Assembly: GCA_028290765.1 (NCBI GenBank)
Contig: JAQGJF010000614.1
Location: 1-10,519, forward strand
Reading direction: 5' to 3'
Length of the DNA: 10,519 nucleotides
From: Tardiphaga sp.
Lineage (GTDB): Bacteria > Pseudomonadota > Alphaproteobacteria > Rhizobiales > Xanthobacteraceae
In this document: one piece after another, positions 6,271 through 10,519 of the stretch
Numbering within the stretch: the first letter of the stretch is position 1
How the letters are laid out: each line of letters begins with the position of its first letter
Notes under the pieces: model-generated
Database searches by the model: none
What the model was told of the DNA's origin: nothing
The model's input: the letters and a program-made list of their open reading frames with translations, nothing else
Made by a program: the position numbers and the translations under genes

Positions 6271-6894
6271 TTATCGCGCCAACGGCGCGGGGGCAAAACC
6301 TTCCGTCGCCGCGACCCGCCACGTCTCGCATGGAATGTCCTGCGGCGCGACGTCGATGGGCTTCTGGAAGCGAACCTGCTTCCAGTCGCCCTGCGAGGGC
6401 GCGAAGCCGTAACCGGACTTGCGGGCCACGTGAATCATGGCGTCGTTGGAACGCAGCGTATCGCCGAACATCTGCCGGGCGCCGAACGCGGCGGCGCGGC
6501 ATTCCAGATTGGCGAGCAATGCCGTGCCGATGCCCTGTCCCTGCCAGCGATCATCGATGGAGAGACCGAATTCGAAATTCGCGGTTTCCGGATCGAAGGC
6601 ATAGCGGGCTTCGCCGACCATCGTGTCGCGGCCGTCGACCCGGGTGGTCGCAACCACGGAGAAGCCGCCGCCGCGGCCAAGGTGGACGAATTTCTCCAGT
6701 TGGGTCTGCGGCAGTTCACTGGCCGCTCCCATCAACCGGTTATAGCGGGAGCGCACCGACAGCGATCGGAAATAATCCTGCAGCGCCTGCGCGTCACGCG
6801 GCTCGACGAACCGTACCGTCACGAGGTCGCCCGAGCGCGAGAGCAAGACGTCCGAATATTGCTGCAACTGATCCAGATCCAGAGGCTTCATCAT
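6271..6894 (-). CDS. GNAT-family N-acetyltransferase
   Basis: A 207-residue protein with one GNAT domain. The N-terminal part has TVRFVEPRDAQALQDYF (about 26-42), a usual opening of the fold. Residues 92-112 form the central strands (MVGEARYAF, NFEFGLSID), and R116-W-Q-G-Q-G-I-G-T124 matches the acetyl-CoA pyrophosphate-binding loop (R/Q-x-x-G-x-G/A). The later segment NDAMIHVARKSGYGF (about 150-164) is the helix and beta-bulge typical of GNATs. It would move an acetyl group from acetyl-CoA to an amine; the acceptor is unknown. GGGAG lies 3 bases before the ATG at 6894 and 6 before the next ATG at 6891, so either may be used. A longer frame starting at 6963 would run through a terminator-like stem and is rejected. 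It lies downstream of the DUF1127 gene on the same strand, separated by that stem. Confidence 0.88.
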   Translation of the reverse strand: MMKPLDLDQLQQYSDVLLSRSGDLVTVRFVEPRDAQALQDYFRSLSVRSRYNRLMGAASELPQTQLEKFVHLGRGGGFSVVATTRVDGRDTMVGEARYAFDPETANFEFGLSIDDRWQGQGIGTALLANLECRAAAFGARQMFGDTLRSNDAMIHVARKSGYGFAPSQGDWKQVRFQKPIDVAPQDIPCETWRVAATEGFAPAPLAR

Positions 6895-7264: not shown

Positions 7265-7300
7265 TTAGGCCTCGGAACCTGCATTTAGGCCCCGGAAAAT
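7261..7300 (+). repeat. 20-bp tandem duplication across the LysR start region
   Basis: Two adjacent 20-base units, 7261-7280 and 7281-7300, match at 17 of 20 positions. Both begin GCATTTAGGC and continue CxCGGAA. The second unit supplies the weak ribosome binding site (CCGGAAA) and the first two bases of the ATG at 7299. In the first unit the same place reads CTG (7279-7281). The first unit overlaps the right edge of the operator dyad. Confidence 0.7.
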
Positions 7301-8198
7301 GACCGCAAGGCTGCCTTCGCTCAACGGATTGCGCGCATTCGAGGCGGCCGCCCGGCACCTCTCCTTCACCCATGCCGCCGCCGAGCTGAACGTCACCCAG
7401 ACCGCGATCAGCCATCAGATCCGGCGGCTCGAAGAGGAGCTGGGTATCAGCCTGTTCGTGCGGCAGAATCGGGCGCTGGCCCTGACGCCGGAGGCGAGGG
7501 ATTATTTGCCCGGCGTGCGCGCTGCGTTCAACGATCTGCGCCTCGCCACCGAGCGATTGCAGCGCCGGGATAACGATCACGTGCTGACGGTGAGCACCCT
7601 GGCGTCGCTGGCGGCGAAGTGGCTGTTGCCGCGGCTTTCCGCATTTCAGGAGGCTCATCCCGGTATCGACGTCCGCATCACCACCTCGACCGCTTTGGTC
7701 GACTTCAAGAGCGGCGATGTCGACGCCGCGATCCGCTATGGCCGCGGCCATTGGCCGGGGCTGCGCGCCGACTGGCTGACCGCCGACCAGTTGTTTCCAG
7801 TCTGCAGCCCGGCGCTGTTGACCGGGGACAGACCGTTGCGCTGCCCACAGGACCTGGCCAATCACGTGCTGCTGCACTCGAGCCAGGGCTATGACGACGA
7901 CTGGCGATTGTGGCTGACCGCAGCCGGGCTGCCGGCCAACATTTCCAAACAACCCGGCCTGAGCTTCGACCTGATCTTCATGACGGTACAGGCCGCGATC
8001 GACGGCATCGGCGTCGCGATCGGGCGAACCACCTATGTCGAGGGCGACATCGCCAAGGGGCGCCTGGTGGTCCCGTTCAAGATTACGCTGCCGGCGGACG
8101 CCGGCTTCTATCTGGTCTCGCCGGAGGCGAGCGCCGAAAAGCCCAAGCTCGCGGCATTTCGGCAATGGATGCTCGCTTCGGTGCAGGGCAAAAACTGA
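7299..8198 (+). CDS. GcvA-type LysR regulator, probable controller of the tricarballylate genes
   Basis: A 299-residue LysR-type regulator of the GcvA branch. The N-terminus LPSLNGLRAFEAAARHLSFT (5-24) and the recognition helix VTQTAISHQIRRLEEELG (32-49), with the wing RALALTPEARDYL (58-70), are characteristic. The effector domain begins at about residue 93 with the GcvA-like VLTVSTLASLAAKWLLPRL and HPGIDVRI; VDAAIRYGRGHWPGL (141-155) is another typical segment. It lies upstream of a TcuC-like carrier and TcuA-like dehydrogenase on the same strand, 152 bp before the carrier. By position it may do the job of TcuR, the LysR activator of tricarballylate use in Salmonella, which is normally divergent from tcuABC. 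I therefore do not give the symbol. The start is in the second unit of a 20-bp tandem repeat, with only a weak GGAAA as ribosome binding site. Confidence 0.92.
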   Translation: MTARLPSLNGLRAFEAAARHLSFTHAAAELNVTQTAISHQIRRLEEELGISLFVRQNRALALTPEARDYLPGVRAAFNDLRLATERLQRRDNDHVLTVSTLASLAAKWLLPRLSAFQEAHPGIDVRITTSTALVDFKSGDVDAAIRYGRGHWPGLRADWLTADQLFPVCSPALLTGDRPLRCPQDLANHVLLHSSQGYDDDWRLWLTAAGLPANISKQPGLSFDLIFMTVQAAIDGIGVAIGRTTYVEGDIAKGRLVVPFKITLPADAGFYLVSPEASAEKPKLAAFRQWMLASVQGKN

Positions 8199-8350
8199 CC
8201 GGCTTTCTAAGCCTATAGCGCGGATCGACCTGCACTTTTGGGGGTTGGTGGCACGATCCCGGCGTGGCAGGATTATCCGCAGAGGCAGCAAAATTGCCCC
8301 GGCCGGTGCGCGCTTGCACGGGTCGCGCCAATCGGAGGATCTCAACCGCC

Positions 8351-9661
8351 ATGTCGCAAACGATCACGTCGAACCCCCCAGAGATCAAATCACGTCTTGG
8401 CGCCATCCTGCGCGCGACCAGCGGCAATTTCCTCGAACAGTTCGACTTCTTCCTGTTCGGCTTCTATGCCAGCGCGATCGCCAAGGCGTTCTTCCCGGCC
8501 CAGAACGAAACCGCGGCCTTGCTGAATACGTTCGGCGTGTTCTGGCTTGGCGCGCTGATGCGCCCGGTCGGCGCCATCGTGCTCGGCGCCTATATCGACC
8601 GCATCGGCCGGCGCCGGGGCCTGATCGTGACGCTCGGCATCATGGCCGTCGGCACCGTCATCATCGCGATCTGCCCGACCTATGAGACGATCGGCGTCGC
8701 CGCGCCGATCCTCGTGCTGCTTGGCCGATTGGTGCAGGGATTTTCCGCCGGCGTCGAACTCGGTGGCGTCTCGGTCTATCTTTCCGAAATAGCCACTCCC
8801 GGCAACAAGGGCTTCTACACCTCGTTCCAGTCCTCGAGCCAGCAGGTCGCCATTTTCGTTGCCTCGCTGATCGGGTTCATGCTCAGCGAAGTGATGCCGC
8901 AGGATATGGTCGCGGCGTGGGGCTGGCGCATTCCGTTTTTCATCGGCTGCCTGATCATTCCCTTCATTTTCATTCTGCGGCGAACGCTGGAAGAAACCCC
9001 GGCGTTCCTGGCCATGAAGAAGCATCCCACCGCCTCCGAGGTGTTCAGTTCGGCTACCGCCAACTGGCGTATCGTCGTGCTCGGCATGATGATGGCCGTG
9101 CTGACCACCACCACCTTCTACTTCGTCACGGTCTATACGCCGACCTTCGGCAAGACCGTGCTGAAGCTGACCAACCAGGAAGCCCTGACCGTGACCCTGC
9201 TGGTGGCGGTCACCAACTTCATCTGGAATCCGGTCGGCGGCGCGCTGTCCGACCGGATCGGCCGCAAGCCGGTGCTGCTGGCGATTGCCTGCCTCTCGCT
9301 GGTCACGGCCTATCCGGCGCTGCACTGGCTGATCGTCGCACCGACCTTCGGCAAGATGCTGTCCGTCGAGATGATGTTCTCGTTCTATTTCGGCGTCTAC
9401 AGCGGCACCATGCTGGGCGCATTGGTCGAAGTGGTGCCGGCCCATGTCCGCACCACCTGTTTCTCGCTGGCCTTTGCGCTGGCCGCCGGCCTGTTCGGCA
9501 CGTTTACGCCGTTTGCATCGACCTGGCTGATCGATCACACCGGCGACAAGGCGTCTCCCGGCTACTGGCTGATGTGCGCCGCGGCGCTGGGTATCATCGC
9601 AGCGCTGGCGATCTATCGCGGCGGCAAGACCATCGAAACCCGCGAAGCCGTTGCTGCATAG
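8351..9661 (+). CDS. tcuC: MHS-family MFS transporter, probable tricarballylate/citrate:proton symporter
   Basis: A 436-residue inner-membrane carrier with about 12 hydrophobic segments, of the metabolite:H+ symporter branch of the major facilitator superfamily. The N-terminus [15 protein letters not shown] (26-40) is the MHS hallmark. MFS motif A occurs twice, as [12 protein letters not shown] (79-90) and [12 protein letters not shown] (297-308), marking the two 6-helix halves. Helix 4-5 with [20 protein letters not shown] (124-143) is also typical. Its citrate-type family and direct position before a tricarballylate dehydrogenase make it the likely TcuC, importing tricarballylate (or a related tricarboxylate) with protons. 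The ATG at 8351 is chosen because GGAGG (8334-8338) precedes it, though the 12-base spacing is long; the earlier in-frame ATG at 8264 would add 29 residues unlike the family. The next gene starts 72 bases after the stop. Confidence 0.87.
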
Positions 9662-9733: not shown

Positions 9734-10519
9734 ATGGTCGACCTGACCCGAAAATTCGACGTGCTGGTGATCGGCGGCGGCAACGCCGCGCTGTGCGCCG
9801 CGATCAGCGCGCGGCGCAGCGGCGCCTCGGTACTGGTGCTGGAAGGCGCGCCGAAATTCTATCGCGGCGGCAATACCCGCCATACCCGCAACATGCGCTG
9901 CGCCCACGACGCCGCCACCGACATCCTCACCGGCCCCTATACCGAGAATGAATTTTTTGAGGATCTGTTGCGCGTCACCGAAGGGCAGACCGACGAGGAA
10001 CTGGCGCGCCACATGATCAGGGAGTCGAAGGACATCCTGAACTGGATCGTCGAACAGGGCGTGCGCTGGCAGCCGTCGCTGGGCGGCACGCTCAGCCTCG
10101 GCCGCACCAATTCGTTCTTCCTTGGCGGCGGCCGGGCGATGCTGAATGCGCTTTACCTGACCGCCGAACAGCTCGGCATCGACATCCTCTACGACGCCGA
10201 GGTGCTCGACCTTGAGATCGAGCACGGCATGTTCCTGTCGGCGTCGCTGAAGCAGGGCGCAGGTCTCGTGAAGGTGCGCGCGGCGGCGCTGGTCGCGGCG
10301 GCCGGCGGCTTCGAGGCCAACATCGAATGGCTGAAGCAATATTGGGGCGACGCCGCCGACAATTTCCTGATCCGCGGCACGCCCTATAATCGCGGCTCGA
10401 TCCTGAAGATGCTGCTTGAAAAGGGCGTGCAGGAAATCGGCGACGGTCTGTTCCAGCGCCGCCGGATCAAGTTCGAGCTTGCCAGCGAGTTCGGCAATGC
10501 TGCCGGCCTCGATCGGCGG
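9734..10519 (+). CDS. tcuA: FAD-dependent tricarballylate dehydrogenase, N-terminal part; frame scrambled after residue 237
   Basis: The first 237 residues match the TcuA (CobZ N-terminal-like) flavoprotein family. DVLVIGGGNAALCAA (9-23) is the FAD-binding Rossmann loop with E37 as the ribose ligand; RGGNTRHTRNMRCAHD (44-59) is the family's own signature; GGGRAMLNALY (131-141), LVAAAGGFEAN (186-196) and FLIRGTPYNRGSILK (211-225) follow as expected. TcuA oxidises tricarballylate to cis-aconitate, and TcuB then re-oxidises its FADH2. The family is about 460-490 residues, so at most half is present. After GVQEIGD (231-237) the expected continuation (PTQCHA and on, from memory) is absent. The frame stays open to the window edge but the last 25 residues (GLFQRRRIKF onward) are foreign to the family; the opposite strand there codes for a later TcuA segment. 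The start is the ATG with weak GAACGAG upstream; it is likely co-transcribed with the carrier gene. Confidence 0.85.
   Translation, partial: MVDLTRKFDVLVIGGGNAALCAAISARRSGASVLVLEGAPKFYRGGNTRHTRNMRCAHDAATDILTGPYTENEFFEDLLRVTEGQTDEELARHMIRESKDILNWIVEQGVRWQPSLGGTLSLGRTNSFFLGGGRAMLNALYLTAEQLGIDILYDAEVLDLEIEHGMFLSASLKQGAGLVKVRAAALVAAAGGFEANIEWLKQYWGDAADNFLIRGTPYNRGSILKMLLEKGVQEIGDGLFQRRRIKFELASEFGNAAGLDRR
10433..10519 (-). other. Inverted fragment of the tcuA-like gene (inversion or chimeric junction)
   Basis: Read on the minus strand from 10519, these bases give 29 codons starting PPIEAGSIAELAG, continuing LELDPAALEQ and ending TVADF at 10433. This resembles the segment that TcuA/fumarate-reductase-type flavoproteins carry in their second half (A-x-S/T-I/L-x-x-L-A-x-K-x-x-x-D-P-A-A-L-x-x-T-V-x-x-F/Y-N). 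The next minus-strand codon is Leu where Asn is expected, so the match stops there. The shared 12 bases GAAATCGGCGAC (10433-10444) read EIGD forward and VADF in reverse, both fitting the family, so the junction lies within them. Confidence 0.7.

Follow-up and report, generated by a model that had tools for sequence, protein, structure and literature searches.

The right end of the contig carries an inverted join within tcuA, the gene for the FAD-dependent tricarballylate dehydrogenase. The last 75-87 bases are very probably a fold-back (inverted) chimera, that is, a chimeric contig end, and the join is most likely not a real biological feature. The window, meaning the whole stretch of DNA that was analyzed, is the entire contig (10,519 bases). 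The features needed to follow the argument are:

7299..8198, plus strand: LysR-type regulator of the GcvA kind, upstream of tcuC (NF008352, E 3.5e-122, above cut-off)
8264..9661, plus strand: tcuC, tricarballylate/proton symporter (NF011656, E 7e-198, above cut-off); the start is probably downstream of 8264, because the family match starts only at residue 42
9734..10444, plus strand: 5' part of tcuA, normal until the join (NF006130, E 4.4e-97)
10433..10444, no strand assigned: overlap of both homologies at the join, GAAATCGGCGAC, with at most 12 bp shared (end of the forward and start of the reverse homology in relatives)
10433..10519, minus strand: inverted later part of tcuA, reaching the contig end (NF006130 positions 321-349)

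The plus frame of 9734-10519 matches the TcuA profile (NF006130) over residues 6-237, corresponding to profile positions 4-236 of 467 (E 4.4e-97). Residues 238-262 do not extend this match, in agreement with the sequence-only reading, which had described the frame as family-like up to GVQEIGD and its last 25 residues as foreign. The tcuA part at 9734..10444 could be aligned with each of the 80 loci fetched (the best of 199), which are mostly Bradyrhizobium and share 84-91% protein identity with the window over the matched part; DNA identity in the genus reaches 89% among the matches listed. For most comparisons we used 86 relatives, comprising these 80 loci and six from the top of the genus-wide DNA matches. 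By title most are Bradyrhizobium; one is a Microvirga (L057), and some are bins assigned no further than order, family or class. Against the forward continuation of tcuA in these relatives, bases 10445-10519 are 21-31% identical, which is chance level, like unrelated DNA.

The same bases are recognizable on the other strand. The minus strand of 10433-10519 translates to PPIEAGSIAELAGKLELDPAALEQTVADF, and this 29-residue peptide matches NF006130 at positions 321-349 (E 1e-3); a Pfam search of the tail returned one chance-level match only (E 0.16). At the DNA level and E <= 1e-3, 78 of the 80 loci match the tail on the opposite strand, the best at 87% over 87 bp. Shortening the words, relaxing the E limit and constraining the position raises this to 80/80, with the match end 339 bp downstream of the first arm. 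The claim that the minus strand codes for a later part of TcuA, and the expectation that its peptide would align to TcuA proteins, are confirmed by these profile and DNA matches. Where the tail and the relatives differ, the third codon position is affected most often (894 mismatches, against 371 and 361 at the other two), and the tail is therefore true tcuA coding sequence.

In alignments to relatives, forward homology stops at 10443/10444 and reverse homology starts at 10433, an overlap of up to 12 bases. This overlap is the junction 12-mer GAAATCGGCGAC that had been singled out as a two-way sequence, a description that stands. The two matching sites in relatives are 339 bp apart start to start, with 327 bp between the arms, and tcuA is intact and in normal orientation in all 86, with no stop between the sites; the inverted orientation was found in none of them. 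For reference, the full tcuA frame in one relative (L090) is 476 residues long, and the frame after it, of 369 residues, we take to be tcuB from the place it occupies. In the window, the join lies 75 bases before the contig end and the contig stops before the second arm. Thus, of the two junctions of the inverted segment, the left one alone is present.

The arms have the character of a chance-level repeat, not a conserved one. The junction word occurs at a single site in the window (10433-10444; shuffles expect 0.01), and 4 of the 80 loci contain it, as one arm only. A perfect 12-base arm pair is present in 0/86 relatives, in which the arms show 1-9 mismatches of 12 (median 3); three of the 86 have near-complementary arms with 1 mismatch. 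A 12-bp inverted repeat pair about 0.4 kb apart had been proposed from the letters of the window. The spacing is close to this (339 bp), but 12 bp is only an upper limit on the true repeat in the window's organism, because no relative has a perfect pair. Position 3 of the junction word carries an A; the second arm has this base in 86/86 relatives, the first arm in only 9/86. The contig's copy of the word therefore resembles the second arm, and to judge from this base fewer than 12 bases may truly be shared. We examined roughly 1.4 kb in each relative, which gives about 637,000 pairs of sites no more than 600 bp apart. A median of 868 of these pairs equal or exceed the arms in complementarity, and perfect 12-base inverted pairs occur by chance at about 0.15 per gene within that distance. 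The complementarity at the join site is thus high yet not special, which is predicted by annealing-driven joining and by homology-driven inversion alike.

We searched for the join in 265 genomes of the genus with a 147-base query that spans it and found it in none (0/265). The query has a match in 256 of these genomes, the nine others being uninformative on the join, and the result rests on the matches listed plus the best E-value per genome for the remaining genomes (best of any genome, 7.3e-27). The matches listed cover bases 1-71/72 or 61-147 of the query, never both. In a genome with the join, the score should approach that of both pieces added together; in one genome (G164) the two pieces match separately, at 106 and 108 bits. 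Long matches to the whole 786-base query end at 710-711 among the matches listed, and of the 113 plasmid records with a DNA match to 9734-10519, none of the 20 listed extends past query base 712. Among 5.8 billion proteins, the window's own protein was the only one at E <= 1e-3 (best of 168 candidates). This search used words from residues 219-262 and covered proteins of 0.55-1.75 times 262 residues sharing exact words, a range that longer forms of the chimeric protein could escape. The junction 30-mer has no exact match in viral contigs. Separately, one genome (G020) has two stretches on the same contig (C445, 6741-6811 and 197978-198048) that are both 93% identical to the pre-join tcuA stretch and lie in opposite orientations, which suggests two tcuA copies in that genome.

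A fold-back chimera at the contig end, which the sequence-only reading had offered as the simplest alternative to an inversion, fits all of these findings: the join is inverted and connects nearby segments of one locus (in relatives the opposite-strand match lies 339 bp downstream), the arms at the junction agree in relatives at a median of 9 of 12 bases, and the join was not found elsewhere in the genomes, protein database and viral contigs searched. We envisage that a strand ending at one tcuA site would pair, through a complementary stretch of about 8-12 bases, with the other site, 339 bp from the first, on a strand of the same polarity. A polymerase would then copy on, and the product would read tcuA first forward and then, from a later point, backward. 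For the other strand, the process would amount to a plain hairpin, in which a strand end at the second arm folds onto the first arm and copies upstream tcuA. We infer that such a molecule was most likely made in vitro, during amplification or library preparation, and that the assembler may have extended the contig end with one or a few chimeric reads at a place of thin true coverage. Chimeric short-read extension would also be expected to stop as the contig does, 75 bases past the join and before the second arm. A second fold-back contig end in the same gene cluster (L006, below) also speaks for a chimera. Against it, the left junction would be identical in appearance under a true inversion; assemblers normally require one or more real reads spanning a join, so that some molecule with the join existed; and the control of contig ends described below is small, its one terminal fold-back sitting at a longer native repeat.

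Published chimeras provide close parallels. Of 475 chimeras from multiple displacement amplification, 406 were inverted, with the segments of 337 of these less than 10 kb apart, and priming occurred at 2-21 complementary bases (PMC1855051). The join described here shares the inverted orientation, the short complementary junction and the proximity of the segments (<10 kb), but it is one join in a contig, not in a read (PMC1855051). In sonicated human libraries, chimeric reads begin with forward sequence, pass through a short native inverted repeat and go on with the complement of the interior; they were filtered at a total repeat length of at least 8 bp (PMC10908179). The window has the same order of parts with a short imperfect native inverted repeat, as in the PDSM model for such reads, although that model is described in human short-read libraries and the arms here are 327 bp apart (PMC10908179). 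Our search of the literature on chimeric contig ends with hairpins found nothing related.

A genuine inversion in tcuA, of about 350 bp and bounded by the short inverted arms, is improbable, whether as a fixed lesion or as a reversible switch. The junction geometry is exactly as expected for it, with as many as 12 bases shared at the left arm, and near-complementary arms occur at the same two sites in relatives, in three with a single mismatch. However, the contig stops before the second junction, none of the 265 genus genomes carries the join, no relative has perfect arms, and perfect inverted pairs of 12 bases, no more than 600 bp apart, occur by chance at the frequency per gene given above. 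Nor did a comparison of the 10 other open reading frames in the window with NCBIfam reveal a site-specific recombinase among the families listed (three of the 10 have no family at E <= 1e-10). The part of the sequence-only reading that saw an inverted join in tcuA is upheld, while its suggestion of an on/off switch or a lesion in tricarballylate oxidation has no support beyond the join itself. Were it real, the join would mark an inversion within the gene of a metabolic enzyme.

Bacterial invertons include intragenic ones. An intragenic switch here would use arms of at most 12 bp to invert about 350 bp of this catabolic flavoenzyme gene and so turn off tricarballylate use in part of the population, a proposal that we consider highly implausible. 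As in bacterial invertons, a segment between inverted repeats is joined in the other orientation; unlike them, the contig lacks the second junction, the relatives lack the other orientation and any perfect repeat, and no recombinase was seen in the window (PMC11892184). Inverted repeats at these sites are not conserved (median of 3 mismatches of 12), only the normal orientation is found in the relatives, and no site-specific recombinase was seen nearby, among the window's 10 other open reading frames. Titles and abstract openings of the papers listed on tcuA and tricarballylate make no mention of inversion or phase variation.

It is likewise highly implausible that the inverted tail derives from tcuA of another Bradyrhizobium strain in the sample, through a join between molecules of two genomes: the nearest relatives do differ between the 420 bp body (L090, L092 and L005, 89-90%) and the tail (L047 at 87% among the 86 relatives, and G056 at 90% among the genus matches listed), but pairs of relatives with 88-90% body identity have tail identities of 74-90% (5-95% range), within which the 82-84% of the tails of L090, L092 and L005 is ordinary, body and tail identity are uncorrelated across the 86 relatives (rho 0.11, p 0.32), and 87 bases are too few to decide, so that the hypothesis is not needed.

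The left contig end has a different character. Bases 1-42 form an almost perfect palindrome, and sequences about 78-95% identical to bases 1-90 are scattered over many places in related genomes, with many copies in some of them. In at least four of 60 genomes, the similarity starts at base 1 and continues to about 381-396, across the palindrome and into the neighboring gene. A second fold-back at this end was considered and rejected, given the dispersed copies and the matches running through the palindrome. We conclude that the contig breaks here in the ordinary way, at a natural palindromic dispersed repeat of Bradyrhizobium, and this repeat (1-90) is the likely reason for the break.

As a control, we examined the contig ends that fall within the fetched loci, a small sample of 20 ends of 17 contigs, of which 18 have their last 150 bases covered by relatives (the right ends of L004 and L009 have no relative over this stretch). 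A terminal inverted join is present at one of the 18 covered ends, compared with the tcuA join in none of the 265 genomes. This case is the right end of a contig from a metagenome bin (L006), where 6478-6744 form a fold-back with perfect inverted arms of 107 bases that include the last codons of the gene after tcuA. It surrounds an inner stretch resembling a native inverted repeat, longer than the repeat in the window, and is probably another chimeric contig end in a public metagenome bin. At two other right ends, opposite-strand matches occur beside forward ones: three loci beside three forward for L012, which has an internal palindromic stretch, and two beside 25 forward for L019.

Returning to the fold-back chimera as the preferred explanation, terminal joins of this kind can mimic intragenic inversions and yield false protein tails. 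The chimeric protein predicted from this contig is already in the protein database, as a cluster of one sequence from one contig. Such fold-backs would be flagged by screening each contig end, over about one read length, for matches on the opposite strand.
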